DNA of 35,272 nucleotides, taken from Sharpea azabuensis DSM 18934 (GTDB taxonomy: Bacteria > Bacillota_I > Bacilli_A > Erysipelotrichales > Coprobacillaceae). Below the pieces are notes generated by a model, which was given only the letters and a program-made list of their open reading frames with translations, had not been told where the DNA came from and searched no databases. The stretch is from positions 1-35,272 of the forward strand of contig NZ_JNKU01000031.1 in assembly GCF_000702165.1 (NCBI RefSeq), written 5' to 3'. Both the position numbers and the translations under genes were made by a program. This document shows positions 449 through 17,901 of this stretch, piece by piece. Each line of letters opens with the position of its first letter. The first letter of the stretch is position 1.

Positions 449-1984
449 TTATTCATCATCGACAACATCATTGTTGAAGTTTTCTAGATCAGTAATAAGA
501 TTCTTATAAACGGAATCGATGGATTCACTAAAGGCTGCATCCTTCATATTATTCTTAAGGGCACGACTTGATTTCATTGTATCCTGCAAAGTACCTGCAC
601 CACCAATACAGCCACCTGGACAAGCCATGCCTTCCAATAAGTAACCATCATATTTACCACGTGTAGCATCACGCATCATACGTTTACATTCTGCCAAGCC
701 TTCTGCTTTCACGACTTTTACTTCACGCTCTGGATCAAGATGCTTAACGGCATTGACAACAGCCTGGGCTACCCCACCGCTACCGGCAAAGCCACGGCCA
801 TCACTTGAGCCTTGGACAAGCTTGAAGCCATCTGGGATTTCATCAAAATCAACATTCTTTGCTTCAAACATGCCAGCCACTTCTTCAAATGTCAATGTAA
901 AGTCGACATATGACTTAATAGAATTACGAGCTGCTTCTTTCTTCTTTGCAAGACATGGACCAATGAAACAGATCTTCGCATCTGGTTCATTTTGTTTAAG
1001 AAGACGTGCTGTTAAGACCATTGGTGTTAAGGCCATGGAAATATTGTCAGCATAATCAGGGAAATCCTGTTTAGCCATCTTTGACCATGCTGGACAACAT
1101 GATGTACCCATGAATTTCAGCTTTGATGGTACTTCATCGAGAAAGTCCTGAGCTTCTTCAATCGTACATAAGTCTGCTCCCATCGCTACTTCAAGAACAT
1201 CAGTAAAGCCTAGCGCCTGGAAAGCACCACGCATTTTCTCCGGTGTTAAGTTTGGTCCAAACTGACCGGCAATAGCTGGTGCAACAATCGCATAGACATT
1301 TTCTTTATTTGTAATAGCTTTGATAGTCTGATAAATCTGACCCTTATCGACAATAGCCGCAAATGGACAGCTTACCAAGCACATTCCACAAGCCACACAT
1401 TTACTCTGATCAATATCGGCACGACCATATTCATCTTTGCCAATCGCATTAACACCACATGCTGCCACACATGGACGTTCCTGTTTAATAATGGCATTAT
1501 ATGGGCAAGCTTTCATACAAAGACCACATTTAATACATTTAGACTGATCGATATAGGACTTTCCATCAACCATGGAAATAGCCCCTTTTGGACAGACTTC
1601 CTGACATGGATGTTCAAGACATCCCTGACAACAATCAGTGACAATGACACGTTTCTCTGGACATTTATGACAGGCAAACTTAATGATATCGATGAGTGGT
1701 GGTTCATAGTATTTTTCATCAATCATACTTTCATCCACACCATCACTGATTGATTTATATTCACTAATAGGACGAAGTGAGAGTCCCATTGCAACACGTA
1801 AACGTTCAGAAACAATTGCTCTTTCGACAAAGATACTATCACGATATGTTTCTATTTCCCCGGGAATAATCTTATAGGGAAGTTCTTCAAGCTTTTCAGG
1901 TCCTCCACCTTCATAAGCTAAACGCGCGATTTCTGTAAAAATCATATGACGAATCTTGGATTTTGGGGTTGGTACACCTTTCAT
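449..1984 (-). CDS. Monomeric [FeFe]-hydrogenase (group B-like)
   Basis: Iron-only hydrogenase of 511 residues that reduces protons or oxidises H2 with ferredoxin-type electrons in the cytoplasm. The H-cluster motifs are TSCCPAW (Cys296/297), GPCLAKK (Cys344) and MACPGGCIGG (Cys455/459). Ahead of them are a cysteine-rich N-terminal block (Cys105-Cys131) and two ferredoxin-like [4Fe-4S] motifs near residues 150-160 and 196-206. There is no NuoG-like [2Fe-2S] domain, unlike the larger enzyme at 14333. PAW instead of PGW in the first motif and the N-terminal block resemble group B enzymes. I chose ATG 1984 over GTG 1990 because it lies about 10 nt after GGAGG, while the GTG is too close. It has its own extended -10 promoter and terminator, so it is not simply the last gene of the maturation operon. 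It would be a client of hydE/hydF next door. Confidence 0.93.
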   Translation of the reverse strand: MKGVPTPKSKIRHMIFTEIARLAYEGGGPEKLEELPYKIIPGEIETYRDSIFVERAIVSERLRVAMGLSLRPISEYKSISDGVDESMIDEKYYEPPLIDIIKFACHKCPEKRVIVTDCCQGCLEHPCQEVCPKGAISMVDGKSYIDQSKCIKCGLCMKACPYNAIIKQERPCVAACGVNAIGKDEYGRADIDQSKCVACGMCLVSCPFAAIVDKGQIYQTIKAITNKENVYAIVAPAIAGQFGPNLTPEKMRGAFQALGFTDVLEVAMGADLCTIEEAQDFLDEVPSKLKFMGTSCCPAWSKMAKQDFPDYADNISMALTPMVLTARLLKQNEPDAKICFIGPCLAKKKEAARNSIKSYVDFTLTFEEVAGMFEAKNVDFDEIPDGFKLVQGSSDGRGFAGSGGVAQAVVNAVKHLDPEREVKVVKAEGLAECKRMMRDATRGKYDGYLLEGMACPGGCIGGAGTLQDTMKSSRALKNNMKDAAFSESIDSVYKNLITDLENFNNDVVDDE

Positions 1985-2032
1985 ACACACATTTCCTCCT
2001 CAACTTGTAACCCTTTTCTTTTAGTCAAAGAC

Positions 2033-2106: not shown

Positions 2107-3150
2107 CTAACGATAATCTCCTCGCGCTTCGACAACTTCATAACCCGTGCGCTTAATTCTTCTTTCCATACAGGCATGACATTCAGCCGCTTCCTCACCT
2201 GTACAGATCTTGCCATCATAAAGCATATACTTGCTTCTTACACCGCGTGGTGACAAATTGGGCATGACAACATTTGCCCCGGCAAGAAGGCCCTTTTCCC
2301 TGCCTTGGGGATCAATTGTGCCTAATGCTGTAGTAGCTGGAAGGAGGCAATGGGGCAACATGAGACGAATGATGCCAAGTAAATGCAAGGTATCTTCAAG
2401 TGTGCCTCGCGGTTCATTTTTGAATGGTGTATCGGCATGAGGAATAAATGGTCCAATGCCTACCATATGGGGATTGAAGTCTTTCATATAGATGAGATCT
2501 TCAATAATATGATTATAGGTCTGTCCCGGTGTACCGACCATGATCCCACAGCCCACCTGATAGCCAATATCCTTTAAGTCTTTCAGGCACTGTTTACGAT
2601 GAGCAATCGATAATTCTTTAGGATGAAGCTGACGATAGTGCTCGGGATTGCTTGTTTCCTGGCGTAAGAGATAGCGTTCAGCCCCAGCTTGATAGTATTT
2701 GAGATAGGAGGATTTCTCTTTCTCACCAATCGATAGTGTAATAGCCATATCGGGATGAAGAGCCTTAATAGCTTTCACAATCTCACAAATCATCTCATCA
2801 CTAAACCACATATCTTCACCACTCTGTAAGACAACAGTACGAAAACCGAGCTGATAGCCCTTTTGGGCACAGGCAACGACATCTCCAGGAGACAAGCGAT
2901 AACGCTCAGCCTTTAGGTTATCTTTACGTATTCCACAATAGAAACAATTATTCTTACAGTAATTGCTGAACTCAATCAGCCCGCGTAAATAAACATCCTT
3001 GCCATAAATCTCCTCACGCACAGCGCAGGCATTCTTATAAAGATAGTCTTCATCTTCCTTTGTCATAGAAGTCAATAATTGCTTATAGCCATCATGATCT
3101 AATTGCTGGTGCTGTCTTAAGTGATCAATAAGTTCCTTATTATTCATCAT
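2107..3150 (-). CDS. hydE: HydE, radical SAM [FeFe]-hydrogenase maturase
   Basis: Radical SAM enzyme of about 347 residues. In the known pathway HydE acts on the organometallic iron-cysteine product of HydG during assembly of the diiron subcluster. The radical SAM motif is CKNNCFYC followed by GIR, as in HydE. The C-terminal triad C-x7-C-x2-C (CTGEEAAECHAC) matches the second iron-sulfur site of Thermotoga HydE. The start is ATG 3150 (or 3147), behind GGAT inside the end of hydF, giving an 11-bp overlap. A further upstream start encoded within hydF is unlikely. PylB and BioB are relatives, but the adjacency to hydF and two [FeFe]-hydrogenases decides for HydE. No hydG is present in the window, which is odd for a hydEF locus. 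Confidence 0.92.
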   Translation of the reverse strand: MMNNKELIDHLRQHQQLDHDGYKQLLTSMTKEDEDYLYKNACAVREEIYGKDVYLRGLIEFSNYCKNNCFYCGIRKDNLKAERYRLSPGDVVACAQKGYQLGFRTVVLQSGEDMWFSDEMICEIVKAIKALHPDMAITLSIGEKEKSSYLKYYQAGAERYLLRQETSNPEHYRQLHPKELSIAHRKQCLKDLKDIGYQVGCGIMVGTPGQTYNHIIEDLIYMKDFNPHMVGIGPFIPHADTPFKNEPRGTLEDTLHLLGIIRLMLPHCLLPATTALGTIDPQGREKGLLAGANVVMPNLSPRGVRSKYMLYDGKICTGEEAAECHACMERRIKRTGYEVVEARGDYR

Positions 3151-4330
3151 TGTCTTTATCCTTAATAATCTGCATTGAACGATCAAGAATCCCATTCATA
3201 TAGGCAATGGCCATACCATAATTCGTGATGGGCACCCCCTGCTTAACAGCCTCTTGCATGCGATGGACAACTTCTCTTTCATTCAACATGCAGCCACCAC
3301 AATGAATAATCATTTTATAGGCTGATAAGTCACTTGGAAAGCCAAAGCCGGAGCTTGTTTCAATAATGAGATGCTTACCCGTGTAGTTTTTCAGCCAGTT
3401 CGGGATTTTCACTGTTCCAATATCCTTACATGTACGATGATGTGTACAGCCTTCACTGATCAGGATGTGATCTCCATCCTGTAGTTCATCAATGGATTTG
3501 ATGCCATGATATGTGACATGTAAAGCCCCTTTATAACGTGCCATAAGAATGGAAAAAGATGTCAATGGGATATCATCTGGAACGATTTTAGAAACATAGG
3601 CAAAAGCTTGTGAATCGGTAATGACAAGGGCTGGCTTTTCTATTTTATGCAATGTTTCCGCCAGTTCGCTTTCCCGACAAACAACTGGAATATTCCCATA
3701 ATCAAGTAAAGCACGAATAACTTGTTGCTGGGGTAGAATTAGACGGCCTTTAGGTGCGGAGGCATCAATAGGAATCACTAATATGACAAGTGAGCCAGAT
3801 GGCACTAGATCATGAACAAGTGCTCGTTGATCTTTTTCTGGTTTGAGTAAAGCGATTTTATCTTTGAGTTCCTTAATGTTCTCTTTTGTCTTTGAAGAGA
3901 CATAAATTGTATCCTTTGTCTCTTTGTCAAAGTGACTGAGATCACATTTATTATAGACAACAAGATAAGGAATATGGAGACTCTTAATTAGTGCTAGGAC
4001 TTCTTCATCGAGTTCATCCATCCCTTCCCTGCTATCAATGACAAGTAAGGCGATATCTGTCTTATGGAGCATTTTCTTGGCTTTTTCCACACGCTTTTCA
4101 CCAAGTTCACCCGTATCATCAAGACCCGGTGTATCAATAAAGACAACAGGTCCTAAAGGCAAGAGCTCCATCACTTTCATAACAGGATCGGTTGTTGTGC
4201 CTTTCTGATTGGAGACAATGGCTAAATCCTGATTGGTAATGGCATTAATCAAGGATGACTTCCCGGCATTACGCTTACCAAAAAGACCAATGTGAATACG
4301 TTCACTTGAAGGTGTGCTATTTAAACTCAT
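3140..4330 (-). CDS. hydF: HydF, GTPase scaffold for the H-cluster diiron subcluster
   Basis: GTPase and iron-sulfur protein that carries the assembled diiron subcluster to apo-hydrogenase. The N-terminal G domain shows GKRNAGKSS (P-loop), DTPG and NKCD. The middle is the dimerisation domain. The C-terminal cluster domain has C-T-H near residue 311 and HCGGC about 50 residues later, the HydF CxH...HCxxC signature. I start at ATG 4330 behind a GGGGGG run; the in-frame TTG one codon upstream is less likely. It overlaps the preceding nitrogenase-like gene by 14 bp and hydE by 11 bp, so translation is probably coupled. Length (396 aa) is normal for the family. Confidence 0.94.
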   Translation of the reverse strand: MSLNSTPSSERIHIGLFGKRNAGKSSLINAITNQDLAIVSNQKGTTTDPVMKVMELLPLGPVVFIDTPGLDDTGELGEKRVEKAKKMLHKTDIALLVIDSREGMDELDEEVLALIKSLHIPYLVVYNKCDLSHFDKETKDTIYVSSKTKENIKELKDKIALLKPEKDQRALVHDLVPSGSLVILVIPIDASAPKGRLILPQQQVIRALLDYGNIPVVCRESELAETLHKIEKPALVITDSQAFAYVSKIVPDDIPLTSFSILMARYKGALHVTYHGIKSIDELQDGDHILISEGCTHHRTCKDIGTVKIPNWLKNYTGKHLIIETSSGFGFPSDLSAYKMIIHCGGCMLNEREVVHRMQEAVKQGVPITNYGMAIAYMNGILDRSMQIIKDKDNDE

Positions 4331-5426
4331 CAAGAATCCCCCCTTTTAAGATATTGGGCATGCTTTTCAAATAAAGACGGCCACTAAAAGCTAAATGTGG
4401 AAGTGGTGTAATAGGTGTTGAAGTGAGAACTTGATACATCGGATCACCAATAATTGTTTGTGCCTCACTTAATGCCTGTTCCATTTCTTCTTCATCTTTA
4501 CTTACAAGATCCCCTGTTCTTATTATACGCTTAGATTCTTCTAAAGGAGTAATCATTTTATACGATGTGTATAGAGCATTGCCTAAAGAATGACTGATAA
4601 TGGCATCACCAATAATAATATGTTCATCACTCACTTCTTTATGAAGAAGAGGATTTTGTGACTTTCCTGTAGAAATAGCTTCTTCAATCGCTTTAAAGAT
4701 CTTATACTTAAAATCACCTATTGGACTCCCTAGGACATAGGGAATATGATATGTTCTTTCAAAGTATTGGGCTAAGCGTAATCCTGATGAAGAGACAACG
4801 ATATTAACATTGGCTGACGTAGATCTTTGAAGCTCTTTTAAGCTCGTATCCCTTGCCCAGATAGAGAGCACTTCATAATCATGAAAGATATCTTTAAAAA
4901 GGGCTGTTGTATCACTTGGGGTATAGTCCAAAGGTGTTACACCTAGAATATTGATAGCTTTCTTTGTAGGAACATAATCTTCAAATGATAAATGAGAAGC
5001 AAGAGCTTTAAAAGCCAAGGCAATCCCATGGGTATAATCATGCATGGCATTGGTTGGAATATAGAAAGCTGGTATATCAAGTGTTTCTTCAAGCTTCTTA
5101 CAGATGGCACTAAAGTCTGTTGCGTTGAGGTAAGGAATGGGTGAATTGGCCAAGGCAATAAACTTGGGATGCTGGTCTAATGCGACCTGGACAATGTCAT
5201 CAATGAACTTGCCATCATTGCCCATAATGGCATCGGATTCCTTTAAGCCGGATATATAAATACGTGATGCTTCTTGATACCAGCGTACTTCATCATGGGT
5301 ATTGTAGGTAGAATTGCACCCACTTGGATCATGAATGACAATAAGTCCCCCTAACTCATAAAGGGCTGAGGCCACACCGGAGATATCACCAGTATAAACA
5401 GGCAGGCGGTTATAAACACATCTCAT
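4317..5426 (-). CDS. Nitrogenase component 1-like protein, K/N-type subunit of pair 2
   Basis: Oxidoreductase/nitrogenase component 1 family, 369 residues. The N-terminal part has TGDISGVASALYELGG, then DPSGCNST, matching the NifK/NifN opening motifs (P-x-x-SG-x-x..L and P-x-GC). Cys37 is the only candidate cluster ligand there. The place where NifK has its third P-cluster cysteine reads ALANSPIP, with no cysteine. No FeMo-cofactor ligands are recognisable. It overlaps the preceding D/E-type gene by 4 bp (ATGA), so the two probably form a heterodimer, and it overlaps hydF by 14 bp. ATG 5426 is preferred to the upstream in-frame GTG. The substrate is unknown; position in a hydrogenase maturation operon suggests cofactor assembly. 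Confidence 0.8.
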   Translation of the reverse strand: MRCVYNRLPVYTGDISGVASALYELGGLIVIHDPSGCNSTYNTHDEVRWYQEASRIYISGLKESDAIMGNDGKFIDDIVQVALDQHPKFIALANSPIPYLNATDFSAICKKLEETLDIPAFYIPTNAMHDYTHGIALAFKALASHLSFEDYVPTKKAINILGVTPLDYTPSDTTALFKDIFHDYEVLSIWARDTSLKELQRSTSANVNIVVSSSGLRLAQYFERTYHIPYVLGSPIGDFKYKIFKAIEEAISTGKSQNPLLHKEVSDEHIIIGDAIISHSLGNALYTSYKMITPLEESKRIIRTGDLVSKDEEEMEQALSEAQTIIGDPMYQVLTSTPITPLPHLAFSGRLYLKSMPNILKGGILDEFK

Positions 5427-6709
5427 AATAAGCACTCACATCCTAATCCTTTTTGGGGCACAATAAGAGCAGGATCTTTTGATGCATAATAAGCTTCTTC
5501 AATCGCTTTCAGCATACTTATAAGGCCACGATAGCCAAAGAACCCTCCACCCTCAATGATATTCACAAAATGTCTGGTATTTTCAAAGTATGCTGCTTTA
5601 GGCCCAATAGCAAGACACTCTCCCTCCCCCATTTCAAAACGCATATTCGCATGAATAGTGGGGATGAGCTTTAAGGCTGGAAATTGTTTTTGAAGAAAGA
5701 GAAAATCTTCTTTTTCTTCAGGAAAGATCGTATCAAGATAGACGCTTGTCACGTTAAAACCATGTTCTAAAAGAACGCGGGCAAGGTTTAATGGCCGTGG
5801 TGTTGCCACAAAGTCAATCGCAATAGCTTTTTGTCCAATAATATCTTTTAAATGACTAAAGGCTTCATCACATGCCTCCTCTCTTGCCTGATGATCAAGA
5901 TGGGAAATATGAAGCTTGTCACAGAAAAGATCAAGTTCTTCTTGAATCGACTTGTAGTCAAAGCAAGGTGAAAGATAGAGATAGCTGGCATGTAATCTTT
6001 TTGATAAGGCCTGAATGCCATAATCACCAGCTGGATATGTACAAATATGCATTTGTGCACGACCTAGATTCAAGAAATCCTGATAGTCCATATCTTTTAG
6101 CTGACGTACTTTCAAATGGTGATCTATAGCCATTGCAACTAGGTCACTTGTTTCATATGTATGTGTGACTTCAGAGCCAAGCAAGGCGATTGAATCATCC
6201 TGTGCTAAAGGCTGAATGCTGTCATACATAACCTTACGCAGTCTTTGATCAGGAGCAAGACCTTCTTTTTGCGAGAGTGGATCCATAAAAGCTTCGACAA
6301 AGACCACAGTTGGAAAAGTCGCTCTAAGCTTCTTATAGACATAATCTAAGTCAACCGAAAGAAATTTATGAAGACAGACTGGAAAGATGATGGCTACTGG
6401 TGGTAATGAGGAACGCTTGTTGAGGGCATAGGTGATGGTTTCAATCATCTGTTCTTCTAAATGCCCATCGAAAATATCGCGCTCTTCAATCGTGATGCCA
6501 ATAAAACGGTCCATCGCATTCATTTCCGCAGCCGTCATCACTACGCCACGTAAACAGTTATCCGCACAGATATAGATCTGGATGCTTTTTGGAACCTGCA
6601 TGCCAATATGGACGATATTCCATGTTTCATGGACAGGAGGATTAAACTCTAAGCCAATTGTAAAGGGATTAGGATAGTTGGCCTCTGAAATAGGTAAGGA
6701 CATCTTCAT
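5423..6709 (-). CDS. Nitrogenase component 1-like protein, D/E-type subunit of pair 2
   Basis: 428-residue member of the nitrogenase component 1 family and probable partner of the next gene. Candidate cluster ligands are Cys48 and Cys52 (YICADNCLRG) and Cys112 (FPVCLHKF). The partner has one more, Cys37, giving a 3+1 arrangement. The C-terminus is cysteine-rich (LGCECLL). There is no NifD-like FeMo-cofactor Cys/His pair that I can identify. I chose ATG 6709, 7 nt after GGGAG; the upstream ATG 6727 overlaps the hypE stop and lacks a ribosome site. It follows hypE after 11 bp. The sequence is more diverged from NifD than the pair-1 protein at 12199-13464. Family membership is fairly sure; the reaction is unknown. 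Confidence 0.75.
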   Translation of the reverse strand: MKMSLPISEANYPNPFTIGLEFNPPVHETWNIVHIGMQVPKSIQIYICADNCLRGVVMTAAEMNAMDRFIGITIEERDIFDGHLEEQMIETITYALNKRSSLPPVAIIFPVCLHKFLSVDLDYVYKKLRATFPTVVFVEAFMDPLSQKEGLAPDQRLRKVMYDSIQPLAQDDSIALLGSEVTHTYETSDLVAMAIDHHLKVRQLKDMDYQDFLNLGRAQMHICTYPAGDYGIQALSKRLHASYLYLSPCFDYKSIQEELDLFCDKLHISHLDHQAREEACDEAFSHLKDIIGQKAIAIDFVATPRPLNLARVLLEHGFNVTSVYLDTIFPEEKEDFLFLQKQFPALKLIPTIHANMRFEMGEGECLAIGPKAAYFENTRHFVNIIEGGGFFGYRGLISMLKAIEEAYYASKDPALIVPQKGLGCECLL

Positions 6710-6720
6710 AGAAGCACTCC

Positions 6721-7722
6721 CTAACATATTCTTGGCAAGAGTTCGTTGCCCGGTGGTGGCAAGAGTGTTTCGCTGCCAATTTCGGTTGTGATTGTGACAT
6801 GACCTGGATGTTCATCAGTGACATAGCCAATCAGTGCAGCATTTTCTGTATGCTTGCTTTGGTGGAGTATTTGAAGTGTTTGATCAGCTTCACAAGCAGG
6901 AACAACGATCACCATGCGTCCTTCACAAGCTAAATAGAGAGGATCAAGACCTAGCATGCCTGTGACACCCCTGACTTCTTCAGCAACAGGAATCTTCTTG
7001 TTTTCAAGCTTGATTCCAACATTGGCTTCTCTAGCGATTTCATAAAGCACTGTGCCAACACCACCTCTTGTGGCATCACGAATGACATGCACATCCTTGA
7101 CTTTATCTGTTAAGGCATCGACTGCATTCCATAATGGTGCACAATCACTGCTTACATTGGCTTCTATGCCATAATCATCACGCTCTAAAAGAATGCATGT
7201 GCCATGTCTTCCAATATCACCTGTGACAATAATGGCATCTCCCGCCTTAGCGTAGGCTCCTGATGTCTTAATGCCATCTTTAATCGCCCCAACACCTGTT
7301 GTCGTAATAAAGACCTGGTCAACCTGGCCTTTTCCAGCAACCTTTGTATCACCTGCTACAATCTTGACCCCAACTTCCTTAGCGCACTTTTCCATTGAAG
7401 CAACAATCTCTTCTAGTTGATCCATATCAAAGCCTTCTTCAATCACAAAGGCACATGTCATATAAAGTGGCTTAGCACCCATACAAGCCAAATCATTAAC
7501 TGTACCACATATCGATAGCTTGCCAATATTGCCCCCATTAAAGAAAGGCGGAGAAACAATAAAGCCATCCGTACTCATTGCCAATGTCGCCTGCGGATTG
7601 GGCAATACTGAGGCATCATCAGCTGTAAAGTATTCATTATTGAGATGATGCTTAAAAACCTTATCAATAAGCTCAGCAGTCGCCTGACCACCTGAACCAT
7701 GTGCTAATGTTACTTTTTCCAT
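6721..7722 (-). CDS. hypE: HypE, carbamoyl dehydratase (cyanide ligand synthesis)
   Basis: PurM/AIR-synthase-like ATPase, 333 residues. HypE dehydrates the carbamoyl group placed by HypF on its C-terminal cysteine, giving a thiocyanate that is passed as CN to iron on HypCD. The N-terminus has LAHGSGGQ, followed by GDTKVAGKG and RDATRGGVG motifs. The protein ends in PRIC, the conserved tail with the reactive cysteine, so it looks fully functional. The start is ATG 7722 behind GGAGGGTTAAAGGA, overlapping hypD by 13 bp. HypE normally serves [NiFe]-hydrogenases, but only [FeFe]-hydrogenase genes lie here. Confidence 0.95.
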   Translation of the reverse strand: MEKVTLAHGSGGQATAELIDKVFKHHLNNEYFTADDASVLPNPQATLAMSTDGFIVSPPFFNGGNIGKLSICGTVNDLACMGAKPLYMTCAFVIEEGFDMDQLEEIVASMEKCAKEVGVKIVAGDTKVAGKGQVDQVFITTTGVGAIKDGIKTSGAYAKAGDAIIVTGDIGRHGTCILLERDDYGIEANVSSDCAPLWNAVDALTDKVKDVHVIRDATRGGVGTVLYEIAREANVGIKLENKKIPVAEEVRGVTGMLGLDPLYLACEGRMVIVVPACEADQTLQILHQSKHTENAALIGYVTDEHPGHVTITTEIGSETLLPPPGNELLPRIC

Positions 7723-8759
7723 TCCTTTAACCCTCCATAGAGATAATATGCCGAACAAGTTCCTTCGCTAGAAACCATGCAGGCGCCAATAGGATGATCG
7801 GGTGTACAGCCCTTACCAAAGACTGGACAGTCATATGGCTTACATGCCCCACGCAGCACCTCACCGCAACGGCAGGCTGGATTGTCTTTGCCTTTGATGG
7901 CAGGTAAATCATAAACCTTACGGGCATCATAAGCTTTGTAGGCATCTTTGAGCTGTAAGCCTGAATGGGCAATTTTGCCAATCCCACGCCATGAAGCATC
8001 ACATGGTTCCATATAAGTATAAATAATATCCTGGGCTTTTAATGAACCTTCGCTTTTGACAACACGGGGATAGGCATTCACAAAGAAAGGCTGTCCCTGC
8101 TGCACTTTTTTGACAATAATCGCAATCGCCGTCAACAATTCACTGGCCGTAAATCCTGCCACAACACCGCTCACACCTTCCTGATCACGCAATTCTTCAC
8201 AGATCTTTGTCCCAATAATCGCATGCACATGACCAGGATAAAGAAAAGCATCACAGGAATCTTTCATCGCTTCATAAGCCATTGGCATTGTCTTATTGGC
8301 GGTTAATAATGAGAAGTTGGTGAGATCTTTTGCTTCCTTGATGGTCAGAACATCACTTGGAGTCGTTGTTTCAAAGCCAATGGACAAGAAAACAACCTGT
8401 TCATCCTGATGTTTTCTCGCATATTCAACGGCATCAAGAGGTGAGTAGACAACCTTAACCTTAGCGCCTCTAGCTCTAGCCTGGGCTAATGAAAGTTTTG
8501 TCCCTGGTACACGCACTAAGTCACCAAATGTCGTAATTGTACAGCCCTTCTCAAGTGCTAGCATCACCGCCTCATCAATAAAATCAATGGGTGTCACGCA
8601 GACAGGACAGCCTGGACCAGAAATAAGATCTATGGTATCTGGGAGAATATTGCGAATACCGAGCTTAAAGATTTCATGCGTATGTGTCCCACATACTTCC
8701 ATAATACGTATTTGCGGTCCTTGATAGCTTTGAATAATCTCTAATGCTTCCTTATTCAC
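7710..8759 (-). CDS. hypD: HypD, iron-sulfur scaffold for Fe(CN)2CO assembly
   Basis: 349-residue HypD, which with HypC holds the iron atom that receives CN and CO ligands. Conserved motifs are all present: CGTHTHEIF, GPGCPVCVTP with the catalytic cysteine pair, and the C-terminal [4Fe-4S] region CRCGEVLRG...CPVFGKGC. It overlaps hypC by 8 bp and hypE by 13 bp. All expected cysteines are kept, so the Hyp ligand chemistry is predicted to be intact despite the absence of [NiFe] genes nearby. Confidence 0.96.
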   Translation of the reverse strand: MNKEALEIIQSYQGPQIRIMEVCGTHTHEIFKLGIRNILPDTIDLISGPGCPVCVTPIDFIDEAVMLALEKGCTITTFGDLVRVPGTKLSLAQARARGAKVKVVYSPLDAVEYARKHQDEQVVFLSIGFETTTPSDVLTIKEAKDLTNFSLLTANKTMPMAYEAMKDSCDAFLYPGHVHAIIGTKICEELRDQEGVSGVVAGFTASELLTAIAIIVKKVQQGQPFFVNAYPRVVKSEGSLKAQDIIYTYMEPCDASWRGIGKIAHSGLQLKDAYKAYDARKVYDLPAIKGKDNPACRCGEVLRGACKPYDCPVFGKGCTPDHPIGACMVSSEGTCSAYYLYGGLKEWKK

Positions 8760-8967
8760 CTAACAGTTCCTCCATTAAATTCTTTGATTCATTTTCATCA
8801 TCATCGGTAATCTTGGCAATCGCTGCTCCAGCATGCACCATAACATAATCACCTGGCTTTAAATCATCCAAAAGTTCAGCCGAAACGGAACGTTTAGCTC
8901 CTGTTGCATCGACAATCGCAACATTACCTTTCATCTGAATAACTTTTGCGCTAATACCTACACACAT
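8752..8967 (-). CDS. hypC: HypC, maturation chaperone partner of HypD
   Basis: Small 71-residue HypC/HupF protein. It begins MCVGISAKV with the essential Cys2 that binds iron together with HypD. ATG 8967 is chosen because Cys must directly follow the initiator; an open frame continues upstream but runs into hypF. It lies 5 bp after hypF and overlaps hypD by 8 bp. The acidic tail (TDDDENESK) is unremarkable. In [NiFe] systems HypC also docks on the large subunit; here the acceptor is unclear. Confidence 0.95.
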   Translation of the reverse strand: MCVGISAKVIQMKGNVAIVDATGAKRSVSAELLDDLKPGDYVMVHAGAAIAKITDDDENESKNLMEELLGE

Positions 8968-8972
8968 ATTGA

Positions 8973-11246
8973 TTACCTCTTTTCCTTTTCTAAAAGACGA
9001 CTCGCATAGAGAGCCTGTCCTACACATAAGCCACCATCATTAGGTGGAATCAAGTGATGTCTGATCACTTGAAGATTCTTTTCTTTTAAGCCTTTTTCAC
9101 ATAGCTCAAGTAATAATTTATTTTGGAAAACACCACCACTTAAGGCAACTATCTTGATTCCTGTTTCTTGATGAATGCTGTCAACACTTGTAACAATCAT
9201 ATGGGCTAGTTCCTGGTGGAAATAATAAGCCAGATCAGCAACATCTTCATGATTGAGTCTTCTTTCAACGATATCTTTGACAAGCTGATTGGTTGGGAGG
9301 ATATGGGATTGTGAACAAGGCCATTCTTTGGAATCGATGATATGTTTTGCTTGATAAGCTTTTGCTTGTAAACGCATTGCTCCTTCCCCTTCAAAAGAAG
9401 ATGTCAGCGTTAAATTCAAAATAGCACTGACAGCATCAAATAAGCGTCCTGCACTTGTCGATTTGATAGCATTCAGCTTTTTATCATGCATGACTTTAAG
9501 AACATGGGCATTTTGTTTATCACAAAGAGCTAACTTGTCAATCACATTTTCACCATCATCAAAAAGATCATAGATCATTGAAGCGGCAATACGCCAGCCC
9601 TCTTTCGCTGACAGATCGCCACCGATCTGCAAGAAAGGCGCAATATGTGCTTCACGCGTGAAGTCATCCAAGTCACAGACAAGAATCTCGCCACCCCAGA
9701 TTGATCCATCTAGGCCATACCCTGTCCCATCAAAGGACACCCCAATGACTTGATCATGCCAGTCATTTTCCGCCATGCAGGAAAGAATATGGGCATAGTG
9801 ATGTTGAATGCCAACACTTCTGATTCCTAACTCCTTGGCCACCATCGTCGCATTATAGCGGGGATGAAGATCATGACAGACAATTTGTGGCTCCACTTCT
9901 AAAAGTGAAGACATCAGCTTCAATGATTCCTTGAGCGCTTCAACACTACGTATATCCCCTAAATCACCAATATAGGCTGATGGATAGAATAAGTTATCAC
10001 GCCCAATACAGAATGTATTCTTCAATTCCCCACCAATACCAATCACATGTCCCTGATAGGGATGGGTTGTCATAATAGGTAATGGAGCATAGCCTCTTGA
10101 TCGCCTGATCATATAAGGTTCTCCCTGATAGAAATCCACAACACTATCATCACAGCGTACACGTATCTTACGATTATGCGAAAGAATGGCATCACATAGA
10201 CCAGCTAACTCTTTGCGAGCGCCCTCCTCATCACGGGTAATAGGTGCACCAGAGTCATTGGCACTTGTCATCACAAGGACATCGGGCATTTTTATGCCAT
10301 CATCATAATCAAAAAGCAACATTTGTAATGGTGCATAAGGCAACATGATGCCAATATTGGGATTGTCAGGAGCAACGCTTAATGCGATAAGACCTTGCTT
10401 CTTTGGCAAAAGAATGATGGGTTTCTGATGTCCCGTCAGTAAATCTCTCACTGTCTCATTTTCCACTACACATTCCCGTTCGACAACAGTGATATCTTTT
10501 GCCATAACCGCAAAGGGCTTAAAAGGACGATGCTTGCGCTCACGCAGTCTTTTGACAGCTTCTTCATTTGTCGCATCAACGGCAAGATGATAACCACCAA
10601 TTCCTTTGATAGCCACAATCTTGCCATCATGAAGCAATTGACGAGCATGACTGATGGCTTCATGTCCTTTCATGTTTTCATCTAATAGATAGACTTCAGG
10701 ACCACATTCATTGCAGCATACCGGTTGTGCATCATAACGTCTGCTTGTAGGATCATGATATTCCTTTTCGCATGTTGGACACATGGGGAATACTTTCATG
10801 CTTGTGCGTTCACGATCATAGGGCAAACCTTCAAGAATCGTTAAACGGGGACCACATGATGTACAGTTAATGAAAGGATGAAGATAGCGACGATTACTTG
10901 GATCATAGAGTTCTTGACGGCATGTCTCACATGTCGCAATATCAGGAGATATAAAGATTTCTCCCTTTGTCTTTTCGCTTTGAATGATTTGAAAATCTTC
11001 AAAGACTGGAGCAATCACTTTCTGACTTGTAATCTTGAGGATTGTTGAACGTTGTGGGGGCTTTTTTTCTAAGAGTTCCTTGAAATGAGCTACCTGCTCT
11101 TCACTCCCCTGAGCATAGATTTCGACATAAGGGCCTTTATTGGAAACAGTGCCTTTAATATTGCAAGTTGAAGCATGTCTAGCGACCGTAGGACGAAAGC
11201 CAACGCCCTGTACGATACCAAAGACACGAAGACATTCTGTTGTCAT
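8973..11246 (-). CDS. hypF: HypF, carbamoyltransferase (cyanide precursor)
   Basis: 757-residue HypF that uses carbamoyl phosphate and ATP to carbamoylate HypE. Domains in order: acylphosphatase-like (GIVQGVGFRP near residues 10-19), paired zinc-finger motifs (CETCRQELY, CTSCGPR, CPTCEKEY, CNECGPE), a YrdC-like adenylation domain, and a Kae1-like carbamoyltransferase domain with HHYAH and SFDGTGYG. The length is normal. It overlaps the preceding nitrogenase-like gene by 4 bp. Gene order F-C-D-E is contiguous, as in ordinary hyp operons, but hypA and hypB are missing. Confidence 0.96.
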   Translation of the reverse strand: MTTECLRVFGIVQGVGFRPTVARHASTCNIKGTVSNKGPYVEIYAQGSEEQVAHFKELLEKKPPQRSTILKITSQKVIAPVFEDFQIIQSEKTKGEIFISPDIATCETCRQELYDPSNRRYLHPFINCTSCGPRLTILEGLPYDRERTSMKVFPMCPTCEKEYHDPTSRRYDAQPVCCNECGPEVYLLDENMKGHEAISHARQLLHDGKIVAIKGIGGYHLAVDATNEEAVKRLRERKHRPFKPFAVMAKDITVVERECVVENETVRDLLTGHQKPIILLPKKQGLIALSVAPDNPNIGIMLPYAPLQMLLFDYDDGIKMPDVLVMTSANDSGAPITRDEEGARKELAGLCDAILSHNRKIRVRCDDSVVDFYQGEPYMIRRSRGYAPLPIMTTHPYQGHVIGIGGELKNTFCIGRDNLFYPSAYIGDLGDIRSVEALKESLKLMSSLLEVEPQIVCHDLHPRYNATMVAKELGIRSVGIQHHYAHILSCMAENDWHDQVIGVSFDGTGYGLDGSIWGGEILVCDLDDFTREAHIAPFLQIGGDLSAKEGWRIAASMIYDLFDDGENVIDKLALCDKQNAHVLKVMHDKKLNAIKSTSAGRLFDAVSAILNLTLTSSFEGEGAMRLQAKAYQAKHIIDSKEWPCSQSHILPTNQLVKDIVERRLNHEDVADLAYYFHQELAHMIVTSVDSIHQETGIKIVALSGGVFQNKLLLELCEKGLKEKNLQVIRHHLIPPNDGGLCVGQALYASRLLEKEKR

Positions 11247-12202
11247 GAAAAATCACGCCTTCCCGATACGGCAAAATGAATCAGTTCAAGATATTGCCCT
11301 TGGTAATCCTGAAGCATGTCTTTAAAGATAGGATCACCAATAATCATGTCATAATCATTCTTTTTCACAAGTTCAATTAAATCATCTTCCTCAATAAGAT
11401 GTACATCACCCTTTTCTCTTAATGTTGGTTTCATCATAAAGAAGGAAGCAATATCAAAAGGAATGGCAAGCTGTTGTCTTAATGTATGACCAATAACCTG
11501 CTGGCCAATAAAAAGAATATGATGGACATCATGTATATCGAGAGACAAGCCCGGTATTCTCACTTCATAATCTATTCCATAACGATTATGTAGTCGTTTG
11601 GCGGCTTTTAAAGCGGCCGGTGAAGCGACATAGAGCTTTTTTAAAGAACCTACACAACCAAAATCTTCAAAGTTATTGAATGTTGGTAAAGAAAATGCAT
11701 GCGTAAAATCTAAAGGTGTCACACCAAGAATAGCTTCTGTCTGTGAGGTAGGTTTGTTGTTGGCAAATTTCTCAAATAAGGCTAAGTAAGCCATCTCCAT
11801 ACCTTCATCATATAAGCCAACACCTGTTGTAGGGACATAGATGACCGGTTTATGAATCTTCTTCTCAAGAATATGACAAATCCCCTGATAGTCCGTTGCG
11901 ATCACAGCTGGTACCGGTGTGCCCACTAAGGCGATGAAGTTTGCATCAAAGGCATCACTGATATCAACAATCTTTTGAATCAAGGCATCATCCCTACCAA
12001 GAATCGCATCCATATCACGCAGTCCTGCTGAAAAGATAGCCGAACGCTTGTCAAACCAGCGCGGTTCATCAAAGCCACAGACATTGCCCGTACAGCCTCC
12101 AGCATCAATAATAACAGTCAGGCCACCAAGTTCATAAAGGACACTGACGGCACCTGACTGGTCGGGGGCAAAGGGCGTCAGATATTTTCTCAGTCCTTTC
12201 AT
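11243..12202 (-). CDS. Nitrogenase component 1-like protein, K/N-type subunit of pair 1
   Basis: 319-residue nitrogenase component 1-like protein. It has PDQSGAVSVLYELGG and then DAGGCTGNVCG, so Cys37 (and possibly Cys42) could ligate a cluster. The later motif reads ALVGTPVPAV, where NifK would have a cysteine. It resembles the pair-2 protein at 4317-5426 closely in layout, so the two pairs look like an ancient duplication. ATG 12202 sits 6 nt after GGAGG and overlaps the previous stop (ATGA). It is short against NifK (about 520 aa). Partner: the gene at 12199-13464. Function unknown. Confidence 0.8.
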   Translation of the reverse strand: MKGLRKYLTPFAPDQSGAVSVLYELGGLTVIIDAGGCTGNVCGFDEPRWFDKRSAIFSAGLRDMDAILGRDDALIQKIVDISDAFDANFIALVGTPVPAVIATDYQGICHILEKKIHKPVIYVPTTGVGLYDEGMEMAYLALFEKFANNKPTSQTEAILGVTPLDFTHAFSLPTFNNFEDFGCVGSLKKLYVASPAALKAAKRLHNRYGIDYEVRIPGLSLDIHDVHHILFIGQQVIGHTLRQQLAIPFDIASFFMMKPTLREKGDVHLIEEDDLIELVKKNDYDMIIGDPIFKDMLQDYQGQYLELIHFAVSGRRDFS

Positions 12203-13464
12203 AGTACGCCTCCAATCTTTGTACATAAGTCGATCACACCCTGATAGCCATAGGGCTGAATATCTTCATTAAAGAAGACATGTCTGGCATGTGGATGATA
12301 GTAGGCAGCATCTTTGCCTAGTGTGATGTCAACAGTGATATTCGACATATCATAATAAAGCATGCTTGGTTCATTATTACAGTAGATTCTTGTGTCCGGT
12401 GACATTTTCGCAATCTCTTTGACATAATAGGCTGCATGTTGGCCATATGTGGCATAGATTGCTGAGACATGAAAGCCCTGTTTCAACAAAGCGTAGGCTA
12501 ATTCAAAGCTATCGGCATTCAGAGTTTCACCAATCGCAAAATGCAAGGTATGGGGTAAGCTTTCATAAGCTTTAAGGGCGTTCTGGTAGTCCTGCTGGTC
12601 ATCAATTGTTTTTTGAAAGACTTGAAAGAAAGCTTGATATTGATGATGAATACTTTCTAAGTCGTAAAAACGTGAAAGCTCAATTGAACCAATGCCTAAG
12701 CGCTTTTCTAAGTCGCTTGCGGCTGCGCGTGCTTCGGGATGGAGAATGAGATTGAAATTGGCACAAGCCATTTCTTCAAATTCTTCATACGTCTTCATTC
12801 GCGAAATCTCATTGATTTTTGTGATACCGAGTTGTCCTAAATAACAATAAAGCTCACTTTGATCATTTAATGGGGCAAAGAAACCAAGTAAATTCACATG
12901 ACGGGCATGACGCTTTTTCTTTTCTAATAAAGAATAGATGGACTCTCTGACATGGACCATTGGTGGTTTTCTGCCTTCCCTCGTCAATGCATACATATAA
13001 CAAGGCTTGACTTTCACGCCAGGTACCAGCGCTTCACATTTCCGGCAAACTCTTTCCATATCCGTCCCAAGCAATGCATCAACGCAGGTAATACAAATCA
13101 TCACAACTTTGGGCTTCACTTCAAGACTTTCGACAACTTCCTTAACAGCCTGAGGAATATGGGCAAGATGACGTCCTGTCACAATATCTGTCTCATCCAT
13201 AAGATAGTAGAAATAGCGATGCTTATAGTCATCATTTGTCGTAATGGCGGAAGTATTGCGTCCGCAGCATCCTGGGGAAACAATCAACATGACACTTTCT
13301 GGGACGCTTAAGCCAGCACGTTTCACGCCAAAGCCCTGCGCCCCTGGGGAATTATAGGCTAATGTGGCTGGTGAAGAATAAATGAGATGGTTATTGGTCT
13401 GAAAGATATCGGGGATGTCTTGTCGCTTCGCAAGCTCACTCGCCTTAAAATATTTAGCTTTCAT
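12199..13464 (-). CDS. Nitrogenase component 1-like protein, D/E-type subunit of pair 1
   Basis: 421-residue nitrogenase component 1-like protein. Motifs equivalent to the NifD cluster region are NSPGAQGFG (first site, no cysteine), SPGCCGRN (Cys66/67) and [14 protein letters not shown] (Cys124, Cys127). The last resembles the NifD/NifE TC-x-x-x-LIGDD motif. I see no FeMo-cofactor cysteine or histidine in NifD-like context. The first 11 bp overlap the Fe-protein gene and the end overlaps the K-like gene by 4 bp, so expression is coupled. With its partner it should accept electrons from the Fe protein at 13454. The substrate is unknown; nitrogen fixation is unlikely. Confidence 0.83.
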
Positions 13465-14206
13465 CTTCCAACAACTTCTTTGCCAGTTCTATAAACTTCT
13501 GGCTGACTTCAAGATTGATATCCCCTTCAATCGTTGTCATGCCCATCTCTTCATAACGATTGATATCATTGCTGCGAGGAATTTCCCCAATAATCTTCAA
13601 ATCATTCTCTTGTGCAAATGCTTCAACCTTCTCAGTCTCATTTTCCACATTACGGTGGTTCAACAAGATTCCCTTAACCTGGGCATAGCCACGATCAGCA
13701 AAGTTCTTCACCGCACTCTGAATATTATTAGCGGCATAAAGAGCCATCTTTTCACCACTTGTGACAATAATGACATCCTTGGCATAGCCTTCTCTAATAG
13801 GTGCCGCAAAACCACCACAGACAACATCTCCCAAGACGTCATACATCACCACATCGGGTTGATATTCTTCAAATAAATCCAAGTCTTCTAATAAATTAAA
13901 GGTCGCAATAATACCTCTACCAGCACAACCAAGTCCTGGTGTTGGTCCCCCTGTTTCAATACATAATATATTGCCAAATCCCACTTTCGAGATTTCTTCA
14001 ATTGATTGTGGTTCCTGATCTTCACGCAAATATTCCATCACCGGTTTTAATGGTTCGCCATGAAGCAGACTGATGGTTGAATCGGCTTTAGGATCACAGC
14101 CAATCTGAATCACCCTTTTGCCTAGCGTTGCGAAAGCCGCAGACAAATGACTTGTCATGGTTGATTTACCAATACCACCCTTGCCATAGACAGCAATTTT
14201 CAACAT
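13454..14206 (-). CDS. NifH-like Fe protein (nitrogenase-like reductase component)
   Basis: 250-residue ATP-dependent reductase of the NifH/BchL/CfbC family. It shows the P-loop GKGGIGKST (residues 9-17), CDPKADST, Cys94 in GLGCAGRG and Cys130 in VVCGGFA. The two cysteines bridge a [4Fe-4S] cluster between two monomers. It lacks the C-terminal extension of true NifH (about 290 aa). It is the first gene of the operon, behind AAAGGAG and an extended -10 promoter. It is the only Fe protein here, so it probably drives both D/K-like pairs. The family is certain; the subgroup and partner reaction are inferred. Confidence 0.93.
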
Positions 14207-14332: not shown

Positions 14333-16075
14333 TTATTTCTCACCAGGCATTTTCCAGGCATGATGATCAGTATGTAATAAGTGATGGGCTCTTTCACTAT
14401 TAGGCTGGCCTAAGAATTCCTGATAGACTTCTTTGATGGATGGATTTTCATGGGAGAAGCGAATGACATTCTTGGCATCCTGACGATAGAGGACACCAGC
14501 ACGTTCTAGCGCTTCAAACTTGCCATCATGAATAGGCTGACCGCCACCACCGACACAACCGCCAGGACAAGCCATGACTTCAACAAAGTCATAACTTACT
14601 TTGCCAGCCTTAAGAGCATCAAGCAGTCTTGAAGCATTGCCTAAGCCATTGGCAACGGCAACCTTGACACTTGTTCCGTCCATATCAAAGACTTTCTCTT
14701 TCCAGCCTTCCATCCCTCGTACTTCCCTAAAAGCATCGGGATCAGGATTATGACCAGTCGCAAAATGATAGGCTGTACGCAAAGCTGCTTCCATAACACC
14801 ACCCGTAGCCCCAAAGATATTACCAGCACCTGAGCCAAGACCTAAAGGCATGTCAAGAGCACGTTCTTTGATTTCACTAGGAATGATATAAGCACGACGA
14901 ATCATGCGGTTCACTTCTCTTGTCGTTAAGACAACATCCACATCAGGATCCCCACAAGCATCATTCATAACTGGAATATCACATTCTTGTTTTTTGGCGA
15001 GACAAGGCATGATGGAAACACTATAGATATTCTCAGGTTCCACCTGCAACAACTTCGCATAGTAGGACTTCGCAATCGCCCCAAACATCTGCTGTGGCGA
15101 TTTAGAAGTCGAAAGCTGGTCGACAAATTCTGGATAATGGGCTTTCACAAAGCGTACCCAGCCAGGACAACATGATGTAAACATTGGGAATTTATGATCA
15201 GTAGGATGTTGTAAGTGATCTAAGAATTCACTGGCTTCTTCCATGATTGTCAGATCGGCAGAAAAGTCCGTATCGAGAATAAAATCAAAACCAATCATAT
15301 GGAGTGCTTCTGCTAAACGTTCCACTGTCGCAACATCGGGCGATAAGCCAAATTCTTCACCCCAGGCTGTACGAATGGATGGAGCAATCTGAGCAATGAC
15401 AACTTTCTTTGGGTCATCAATAGCTTCATAAACACTATCTGTATCATCACGTTCATGCAAGGCATTAACAGGACAATGGGTAATACACTGACCGCATAAT
15501 GCACATTTGGAATCTTCAAGCGAATAGACATCACGCACATCAACCGTTGTACGTGAGCCTGTATTGACAACATCCCAGATATGAGAATTCTGAATCTTAT
15601 CACAAACCTGAATACAACGCATACATTTGATACATTTTGTATAATCACGAATGAGTGGGAAATTAGGATTGCCCTTTTGCGCAGGAATATCTTTTTTATA
15701 AGGACTATCCATAATGCCTAAATCATTGGCAACTTTCTGGAGCGAGCAGTTGCCTGAACGTGTGCACATTGTACAGTTGGCATTATGCTGGGAAAGTATG
15801 AGCTGCACATTGACAATACGTGCTTCTCTGACCTTTTTCGAATTCGTCCAGATGACCATCCCTTCATCAACGGTATTATTGCAGGCGGTAAAGAGACGTT
15901 CATAGCCTTCTACCTCAACCACACAGACACGGCATGCGCCGATTTCATTGAGCCCCTTCCAATAACAAAGAGTAGGTATCTGAATACCTGCCATCTTGGC
16001 AGCATCTAAAATTGTCGTTCTTTCTGGCACATGATAACTATGGCCATCAATCCATATTCTTACATTATTTACCAT
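14333..16075 (-). CDS. hydA: Multi-cluster [FeFe]-hydrogenase catalytic subunit
   Basis: 580-residue cytoplasmic iron-only hydrogenase. Domains: NuoG-like [2Fe-2S] (Cys37, 48, 51, 65), His-Cys [4Fe-4S] segment (H97...CTMCTRSGNC), two ferredoxin [4Fe-4S] motifs (CIKCMRCIQVC, CALCGQCITHC), H-domain with TSCCPGW (Cys302/303), MPCLAKK (Cys358) and MACPGGCVGG (Cys503/507), then a small-subunit-like tail (YQEFLGQPNSERAHHLL). This is the group A form that pairs with a flavoprotein. Its start overlaps the end of the flavoprotein gene (7 bp), so the two form a complex. A GltD-like rather than NuoEF-like partner suggests the glutamate-synthase-linked A2 type. It would depend on hydE/hydF and whatever supplies CO/CN ligands. 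Confidence 0.95.
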   Translation of the reverse strand: MVNNVRIWIDGHSYHVPERTTILDAAKMAGIQIPTLCYWKGLNEIGACRVCVVEVEGYERLFTACNNTVDEGMVIWTNSKKVREARIVNVQLILSQHNANCTMCTRSGNCSLQKVANDLGIMDSPYKKDIPAQKGNPNFPLIRDYTKCIKCMRCIQVCDKIQNSHIWDVVNTGSRTTVDVRDVYSLEDSKCALCGQCITHCPVNALHERDDTDSVYEAIDDPKKVVIAQIAPSIRTAWGEEFGLSPDVATVERLAEALHMIGFDFILDTDFSADLTIMEEASEFLDHLQHPTDHKFPMFTSCCPGWVRFVKAHYPEFVDQLSTSKSPQQMFGAIAKSYYAKLLQVEPENIYSVSIMPCLAKKQECDIPVMNDACGDPDVDVVLTTREVNRMIRRAYIIPSEIKERALDMPLGLGSGAGNIFGATGGVMEAALRTAYHFATGHNPDPDAFREVRGMEGWKEKVFDMDGTSVKVAVANGLGNASRLLDALKAGKVSYDFVEVMACPGGCVGGGGQPIHDGKFEALERAGVLYRQDAKNVIRFSHENPSIKEVYQEFLGQPNSERAHHLLHTDHHAWKMPGEK

Positions 16076-17901
16076 TTGGCCTCACGTCCCCCTTTAAAAA
16101 TTCCGTACCCGAAGTGGTCACAATGAAGACAGCGGCTTGATTCCTGTAATGCCTCTTCTTCAGTCATACCACATTCCATGAGCTTGAAGTCATGAATACG
16201 CTCTGAGGCTGGACGTTCTTTCATATTGACTCGACCGCATGGCTGATGATCATCAAAGCGAATACGAGGAATATCAACTGAAGAATTGATTTCATGTTCA
16301 TAGCCTAAATATTCATCGATATTGGCAGCAGCCACCTTACCTGCCGCAATCGCTCTAATAACTGTTGCTGGACCAGTTACACAATCCCCACCGGCAAAAA
16401 TACCAGCCTTGTTTTTGACTTCACTTGTATCAAAGGCCTGCAAACGTCCTCTTTCAATAGGAATACCAAAATCACCAAAGCTTTGTGAATCAATACCCTG
16501 ACCAATTGCGACAATGACTTTATCGCAAGGAATACGCAATTCTTCCTGATTGGCTTTTACTGGTGTTGGACGTCCCCATTTAATAGCACCGACAATCTGT
16601 GGCACGGCAATAAAGGCTGTGACATTATTATTGGCATCTTTCTCAATACGTCCAGGCGCATAAAGTTCCATGATTTCACAACCATCGGCAATCGCACCTT
16701 CAACTTCTTCTGGCAAAGCTGTCATATCTGTCTGCCTACGACGATAAATAATCTGGACGGATTTAGCGCCTAAACGAATTGATGAACGAGCAACGTCCAT
16801 GGCGACATTACCACCGCCAATGACACAAATACGCTGGGAAGAAAAATCAGGCATATGATCATCACCAATTTCTCTCAGCATTTCAACGGCACTCATGACA
16901 CCGTTGGCATCTTCACCCTCAATACCAATTTTACGATCATTATGGGCACCAATCGAAACATAGAGCGCATCAAAGTCTTTTTCAAGTTCTGCCAAAGAGA
17001 TATCCTTGCCAATAGAAACATCCGTCTTTGTCTTAAAGCCCGTTGTTTTAAGGACATCGATTTCATGATCCAAAGCTTCACGAGGTAAACGGTAGGCTGG
17101 TATGCCATAACGCAACATCCCGCCTAAACGATGACGCTGTTCGAACACAGTGACATCATGCCCCATGATGCTTAAATAGAAGGCAGCAGATAAACCACTA
17201 GGTCCACCACCAATAATGCCGACCTTCTTATGTGTCGCATCATATTTCTTGAAAGTAGGAAGATGATCTTCATGATCACAGGCAAAACGCTTTAAGCCAC
17301 GAATATTAATAGGATCATCAACCATCGTACGACGACAACGTACTTCACATGGATGTTCACAAATGAGACCACATACTGATGGGAATGGATTATCTTTACG
17401 AATAAGCATAACCGCATCATTATAACGACCATCATGAACTAATGAAATATAACCCGGAATATCAACATGGGCTGGACATTGGGCTACACATGGCACAGGC
17501 TGATTCTGGACATTCAGACAACGACCATGATGAATATGTTCCAGATAGTCATCCCTAAAGCCACGAACCCCCTTTAAAACCATTCGAGCGGCTTCTGAAC
17601 CAATCGCACAGTCAGCTGTTGTATAAATAGATTGTGCTGTAGTTTCAATAAGTTTGAGTGTTGTTTCACTAGCATCACCATCAAGGACTTGATGAATGAG
17701 TGATTCAAGCTGTCCCAAGCCAACACGACATGGCGTACATTTCCCACATGACTGGGCATGGCACATATTGAGAAATGAAGCCGCTAAATCAACAGGACAA
17801 AGACCTGGTTGCGAGGCCTGAATACGTCGCTCAAGATCTTTGTAGAGCTCTTCGACCGTTTCTTCAGCACGGTCTTTTGTCACAATAGAAAGTCTACTCA
17901 T
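16069..17901 (-). CDS. NuoF C-terminal domain / GltD-like NAD(P)H flavoprotein, hydrogenase partner
   Basis: 610-residue fusion. Residues 1-120 match the C-terminal iron-sulfur domain of NuoF/HydB (SCGKCTPCRVG, Cys52/55/58, and TTADCAIG), without the FMN/NADH-binding half. Then come a GltD-type double [4Fe-4S] domain (CVAQCPAHVDIPGY, CGLICEHPCEVRC), an FAD site (GIIGGGPSGLSA) and an NAD(P)H site (VIGGGNVAMDVARS, then YRRR). A late cysteine pair (CLHCDHFGYG) closes it. It should pass electrons between NAD(P)H and the hydrogenase encoded directly downstream. No NuoE-like third subunit is present. The start is ATG 17901 behind GGAAGG. Electron bifurcation is possible but not shown by sequence alone. 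Confidence 0.9.
   Translation of the reverse strand: MSRLSIVTKDRAEETVEELYKDLERRIQASQPGLCPVDLAASFLNMCHAQSCGKCTPCRVGLGQLESLIHQVLDGDASETTLKLIETTAQSIYTTADCAIGSEAARMVLKGVRGFRDDYLEHIHHGRCLNVQNQPVPCVAQCPAHVDIPGYISLVHDGRYNDAVMLIRKDNPFPSVCGLICEHPCEVRCRRTMVDDPINIRGLKRFACDHEDHLPTFKKYDATHKKVGIIGGGPSGLSAAFYLSIMGHDVTVFEQRHRLGGMLRYGIPAYRLPREALDHEIDVLKTTGFKTKTDVSIGKDISLAELEKDFDALYVSIGAHNDRKIGIEGEDANGVMSAVEMLREIGDDHMPDFSSQRICVIGGGNVAMDVARSSIRLGAKSVQIIYRRRQTDMTALPEEVEGAIADGCEIMELYAPGRIEKDANNNVTAFIAVPQIVGAIKWGRPTPVKANQEELRIPCDKVIVAIGQGIDSQSFGDFGIPIERGRLQAFDTSEVKNKAGIFAGGDCVTGPATVIRAIAAGKVAAANIDEYLGYEHEINSSVDIPRIRFDDHQPCGRVNMKERPASERIHDFKLMECGMTEEEALQESSRCLHCDHFGYGIFKGGREAKW

Follow-up and report, generated by a model that had tools for sequence, protein, structure and literature searches.

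A hypFCDE set in an [FeFe]-hydrogenase operon of Sharpea azabuensis and its probable part, with nitrogenase-like proteins, in replacing HydG

In the maturation of [NiFe]-hydrogenases, HypF and HypE make cyanide from carbamoyl phosphate, and HypC and HypD hold iron carrying CN and CO. A complete hypFCDE set on contig NZ_JNKU01000031.1 of Sharpea azabuensis DSM 18934 (genome of 2.41 Mb in 91 contigs, completeness estimate 100%) raises the question of what these proteins serve: no [NiFe] large subunit (PF00374) was found in the whole genome. The analysed stretch, positions 1 to 35,272 of the contig, is referred to as the window. The set occupies 6721-11246 (minus strand) and has a central place in an operon for [FeFe]-hydrogenases, the maturases HydE and HydF, and nitrogenase-like proteins (Nfl), namely a NifH-like reductase (NflH) and two pairs of component-1-like subunits (NflA1/NflB1 and NflA2/NflB2). 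We consider it probable that HypCDEF and the Nfl proteins as a whole replace HydG and supply the Fe-CO/CN unit to HydE and HydF.

The complete hypFCDE set had been recognised in a first-pass annotation made from the sequence of the window, and all four proteins scored above their NCBIfam cut-offs. The catalytic residues that it had listed as retained (HypC Cys2, HypD CGTHTHE and GPGCPVC, and the HypE tail PRIC, ending in Cys345) were conserved at the level of at least 95% applied to all residues here (62-78 homologues per protein), as were further HypD cysteines and the zinc and catalytic residues of HypF. The hypC open reading frame spans 8752-9027, but translation probably starts at the ATG at 8967, which is preceded by AGGAAAAGAGG and supported by a ribosome-binding site. 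Within the window, no hypA, hypB or [NiFe] genes were found, as annotated. Taken genome-wide, the absence held for the [NiFe] large subunit and failed for hypA and hypB, since another contig carries hypA at C2:65871 and two hypB genes at C2:68145 and C2:68803. The lack of HypA and HypB had been read as a clue to selection for the Fe-ligand step only; this was wrong, both being encoded elsewhere. Of the counter-evidence that the annotation had named, hypAB plus a [NiFe] enzyme elsewhere in the genome, only the first part was present. Its proposal that an iron-only enzyme receives the HypCDEF iron unit finds support in the operon setting, in the missing [NiFe] large subunit and in the same pattern across dozens of genomes. 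It had passed over HydE, HydF and the two [FeFe]-hydrogenases in the window as well as the genome's lack of HydG, and the informative absence is that of HydG rather than of HypA and HypB. On contig C2 of this genome, which encodes no [NiFe]-hydrogenase, hypA and the two tandem hypB genes (L007:9059-12222, L008:3-3057; C2 ~63.1-69.5 kb) adjoin genes for an oxidoreductase of fused ferredoxin/GltD-like type, a GntR-type regulator and a membrane protein with multiple spans.

All CO and CN ligands of the H-cluster are generally attributed to HydG. This radical S-adenosylmethionine (SAM) enzyme produces the [Fe(Cys)(CO)2(CN)] synthon used by HydE (review, PMC11736057). Genome-wide, HydG was not found in S. 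azabuensis, where the HydE paralogue was the sole match, nor in its congener Sharpea porci (G031) or the one-contig genome G019. HydE retained an invariant CX3CX2C motif (C80, C84, C87) and HydF invariant Fe-S ligands (C296, H298, C345, C348) in the homologue alignments, and the group A HydA carries the H-cluster motifs TSCCPGW, MPCLAKK and ACPGGCVGGGG. The operon is transcribed in the order NuoF/GltD-like partner, HydA, NflH, NflA1, NflB1, HypF, HypC, HypD, HypE, NflA2, NflB2, HydF, HydE and group B [FeFe] HydA, and over the stretch 2107-14206, bounded by hydE and the NifH-like gene, adjacent genes overlap or almost abut (Table 1). The GltD-like partner gene fits a "group A2, glutamate-synthase-linked" hydrogenase.

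The pattern of replacement was followed across genomes. Across the 43 family genomes, HydG exceeded the cut-off in 8, and a HydE-level match without HydG was obtained in four (S. azabuensis itself, G000; G031, G019 and G030). HypD was present in five (the same four and G020, where the contig is truncated), and the 8 HydG genomes all lacked it, so that HypD and HydG were mutually exclusive (5 HypD+/HydG-, 8 HydG+/HypD-). Operon gene order was kept among the HypD-bearing genera. When NflA2 was used as the query against the genome collection, 107 loci were obtained, of which 80 were retained. They span Bacillota and Actinomycetota, mostly rumen Clostridia and Coriobacteriia, and belong to Lachnospiraceae, Oscillospiraceae including Saccharofermentans, Erysipelotrichaceae, Coriobacteriaceae/Atopobiaceae and Eubacterium uniforme. 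The block NflH-A1-B1-HypFCDE-(NflH)-A2-B2-HydF-(HydE) was found at nearly all loci. Among 50 whole genomes with the module, HydG reached the cut-off in none; a HydE-level match and an [FeFe] HydA were each present in 49; PF00374 was found in 7 and absent from 43. In 397 Lachnospiraceae, HydG was present in 175 and a strong NflA2 match in 40; 30 of these 40 also had HypD, and none of the 30 had HydG (Fisher p=1.5e-8, uncorrected for relatedness). NflA1 was likewise found in 30 genomes, all with HypD and all without HydG.

In the phylogeny of HypD, the module sequences formed one clade (100/100) apart from HypD of genomes without Nfl. Module HydE nested among HydE of HydG+ genomes, with 30 of 31 copies in one starred clade and one Coriobacterial copy outside it, and the HydF tree required five switches between module and HydG contexts, two of them forced by starred branches. 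The nesting and the switches imply a replacement of HydG, which probably happened more than once or involved transfer. A single group-specific position distinguished HydE of module genomes from that of HydG+ genomes, which indicates that its substrate is probably the same or a similar iron synthon; a HydE retuned to a new substrate was rejected on this count.

The Nfl proteins have nitrogenase folds. NflH is a NifH-like reductase with a P-loop and two invariant cluster cysteines (Cys94, Cys130). PF00148 matched NflA1, NflB1 and NflB2, and fold matches placed NflA1 and NflA2 among component-1 proteins: the AlphaFold model of NflA1 (predicted local distance difference test score, pLDDT, 86) matched nitrogenase, NifEN and methylthio-alkane reductase, and that of NflA2 (pLDDT 88) matched an iron-nitrogenase chain (Foldseek E=3e-15) as well as NifEN, DPOR and methylthio-alkane reductase. 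No NCBIfam or Pfam family was matched by NflA2, and a search gave no viral relatives of it. The invariant cysteines are C66, C67, C124 and C127 in NflA1, C45 and C50 in NflB1, C54, C58 and C118 in NflA2, and C40 in NflB2. This set resembles the ligands of the interface Fe-S cluster of NifEN or DPOR and appears unlike the site of the iron-molybdenum cofactor (FeMo-co); the C-terminal halves of NflA1 and NflA2 contain no Cys or His at the conservation threshold. A true nitrogenase was rejected, as NflH scored below the cut-off of the nitrogenase NifH model TIGR01287 (306 bits vs 394), FeMo-co ligands were not conserved, and no complete nif set was recovered, with no NifD/NifK-level matches (NifB was not searched for).

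We infer from these data which proteins would supply the ligands of the H-cluster and which step would fall to each Nfl complex. The dedicated HypCDEF branch would make CN from carbamoyl phosphate, with iron held on HypC-HypD, and HypCDEF and NflH/A1/B1 would jointly assume the role of HydG in building an iron unit that carries both CO and CN ligands. An Fe(CO)2(CN)-type synthon would probably be handed to HydE, because HydE is essentially unchanged. HydE would dimerise the iron unit, and HydF would complete it and insert it into both [FeFe]-hydrogenases of the operon. NflH/A1/B1 could plausibly act as an ATP-driven low-potential reductase of the nitrogenase type, as a CO source or a ligand editor. 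The role favoured for A1/B1, which is put forward tentatively, would be CO supply (by reduction of CO2 or a one-carbon compound) or conversion of Fe(CN)2(CO) to a unit with one CN and two CO. NflA2/B2, which would have NflH in common with the first pair, are tied to HydE/HydF and would probably perform a reductive step at that stage; they are more likely to act later because they are kept with HydE/HydF even where HydG exists. Taken as a general second route to the H-cluster, in which cyanide from carbamoyl phosphate via dedicated HypCDEF and nitrogenase-like reduction replace HydG, and which would be widespread in rumen Bacillota and Coriobacteriia, the scheme seems likely, with somewhat less confidence than the replacement itself. 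Sharpea cultures are said to release trace H2, and hydrogenase-less Kandleria reportedly do not.

Several points weigh against the replacement of HydG by HypCDEF and Nfl. The HypCD product is Fe(CN)2(CO), with the wrong CN:CO ratio for direct hand-over; each iron of the H-cluster precursor requires one CN and two CO, and the HypCD unit must therefore be altered. NflH-A2-B2 was found with HydE/HydF in three HydG+, HypD- Lachnospiraceae (G315, G446, G482) and also in some six genomes lacking both HydG and HypD (G209, G226, G267, G317, G318, G372), a distribution for which the model does not account, so that NflA2/B2 are not strictly a HydG substitute. Many of the surveyed genomes are metagenome-assembled, and the raw association p-values are too favourable because the genomes are not phylogenetically independent. 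In PMC9431212, HydE and HydF without HydG activated HydA to ~1% in vitro; HydG is therefore not absolutely essential. The same activation fits a rival account, in which HypCDEF and Nfl make a new iron-cyanide cofactor for the nitrogenase-like enzyme itself, the co-location with [FeFe]-hydrogenase genes reflects shared regulation, and HydA is matured inefficiently by HydE/HydF with ambient CO and CN. The Fe-S-type cysteine set retained in the Nfl proteins and the existence of stand-alone Nfl operons without nearby Hyd or Hyp genes also agree with that account. Nevertheless, it is improbable, as it would lead one to expect neither the mutual exclusion of HypD and HydG in two families nor the constant HydF/HydE neighbours; moreover, HypCDEF is missing near stand-alone Nfl, and Nfl complexes as such therefore do not need it.

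HypCDEF alone might replace HydG, with Nfl taking another H-cluster step (e.g. to form or reduce the dithiomethylamine bridge or to prime HydE/HydF). The occurrence of NflA2/B2 with HydE/HydF even in the presence of HydG (L158-L160) suits this division, which is possible but somewhat unlikely: the strict tracking of HypD and of HydG absence by NflA1 in Lachnospiraceae, together with its contiguity with hypFCDE, means that A1/B1, if not both complexes, is part of the replacement unit. That the Hyp proteins are remnants of a [NiFe]-hydrogenase system, or still serve such an enzyme, is very improbable. The genome does encode hypA and two hypB genes, and seven of the 50 module genomes encode a PF00374 protein; the two inspected are of the Ech type and lie in Ech-like gene clusters. 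However, PF00374 is absent here and from most module genomes, a hidden [NiFe] enzyme having been rejected by the genome search, and module HypD forms its own clade, in which the catalytic residues are fully conserved. In addition, six module-bearing Lachnospiraceae (G161, G321, G402, G403, G470, G471) have a second HypD gene at a separate place, as expected if the module has a specialised Hyp set of its own. A HydG that exists and was missed, through an assembly gap in the 91 contigs or strong divergence, is scarcely credible given the completeness estimate and the absence from the congener, from the one-contig genome and from all 50 relatives. In 49 of these relatives, the HydG search reached even the far more remote paralogue HydE, and an overlooked HydG was discarded after whole-genome searches of the species' own, family and module genomes.

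Compared with HydE/HydF/HydG maturation, the locus likewise has a HydE and a HydF with complete active-site motifs adjoining an [FeFe] HydA, but HydG is lacking and HypCDEF and two nitrogenase-like complexes stand in its place. The HypCDEF branch of [NiFe] maturation is represented by full HypF, HypE, HypC and HypD with intact catalytic residues; the differences are that Sharpea has no [NiFe] large subunit, that HypA and HypB are encoded outside the operon, and that the module HypD clade is restricted to settings with nitrogenase-like and hydEF genes. Nitrogenase, NifEN, DPOR and methylthio-alkane reductase share with the module a NifH-like reductase and A/B component-1 pairs of the same fold. 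Unlike these, the module lacks the conserved C-terminal Cys/His of FeMo-co ligation, combines one or two reductases with two A/B pairs, and is locked to hyp and hyd genes. The published group A2 hydrogenases of Sharpea and Olsenella come from the same genera and are of the same kind, with a glutamate-synthase-like partner; they are listed there as functionally unresolved, and the text mentions neither maturation nor HydG. Clostridial acetogens in which hydG or hypAB was not identified are treated in part of PMC9431212, where H-cluster assembly without HydG and HypCDEF without HypAB are discussed. In that part, HypCDEF is considered only for [NiFe]-hydrogenases, and neither Hyp nor nitrogenase-like proteins are linked to the H-cluster. 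In the open literature (subscription papers and preprints being largely outside the scope), no description of HydG-less, HypCDEF or nitrogenase-like H-cluster assembly could be identified.

If the replacement is true, a natural and widespread substitute for HydG would build the same cofactor by a different logic, and the [NiFe], [FeFe] and nitrogenase assembly lines would be joined in one operon. It would also offer a tyrosine-independent route for hydrogenase engineering and account for the maturation of the group A2 hydrogenases of Sharpea and Olsenella, which are linked to low-methane sheep. Nitrogenase-positive calls were made for 23% of rumen genomes (PMC6776011); these NifH counts may partly reflect a maturation reductase rather than nitrogen fixation. 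With an NflH scoring as given above, NifH-marker surveys could count such rumen bacteria wrongly as diazotrophs.

Table 1. Genes of the operon in order of transcription, with the matches on which each assignment is based.
Feature	Position	Strand	Evidence
NuoF C-terminal Fe-S + GltD-like NAD(P)-binding hydrogenase partner	16069..17901	-	NF009410 596 bits; PF10589, PF14691, PF07992
[FeFe]-hydrogenase HydA catalytic subunit, group A	14333..16075	-	TIGR02512 480.6 bits, cut-off 405.95
NflH, NifH-like ATP-dependent reductase	13454..14206	-	PF00142 E=1.3e-87; TIGR01287 306 bits
NflA1, nitrogenase component-1-like subunit	12199..13464	-	PF00148 E=3.2e-30; AlphaFold fold match
NflB1, short nitrogenase component-1-like subunit	11243..12226	-	PF00148 E=1.1e-12
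HypF carbamoyltransferase	8973..11246	-	TIGR00143 773 bits, cut-off 466
HypC chaperone	8752..8967, ATG at 8967	-	TIGR00074 65.5 bits, cut-off 48
HypD	7710..8759	-	TIGR00075 393 bits, cut-off 193
HypE	6721..7758, likely start ATG at 7722	-	TIGR02124 421 bits, cut-off 252; C-terminal PRIC
NflA2, second nitrogenase component-1-like subunit	5423..6727	-	AlphaFold + Foldseek; no NCBIfam/Pfam match
NflB2, second nitrogenase component-1-like partner	4317..5435	-	PF00148 E=3.2e-23
HydF scaffold GTPase	3140..4333	-	TIGR03918 556 bits
HydE radical SAM maturase	2107..3195	-	TIGR03956 556 bits
Second [FeFe]-hydrogenase, group B, monomeric	449..1990	-	TIGR04105 621 bits, cut-off 450

Nfl genes were also seen in other settings. 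Where contigs allowed, an importer (FecCD, substrate-binding protein and ATPase) adjoined NflH-A2-B2 in the HydG+/HypD- genomes and in those with neither gene; at L158, L159 and L200-L205, NflH-A2-B2 and HydE/HydF stand beside such a FecCD-type importer (permease, ATPase and binding lipoprotein), and HydG and HypD are both missing from six of these genomes. The more distant stand-alone NflH-A-B operons (L162-L169) all carry FecCD and binding-protein genes and have no hyd or hyp neighbours; they apparently represent a separate nitrogenase-like family handling an imported compound. In Lachnospiraceae bacterium MA2020 (L208:8037-10361), NflA1 and NflB1 are fused into one protein of 774 residues, like NifEN fusions. 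An NflA1/B1-like pair at L161, in the HydG+ genome G353, is accompanied by an NflH 69-75% identical to that of the window, and its neighbours are an amino-acid-type ATP-binding cassette transporter and a cystathionine lyase-like gene.

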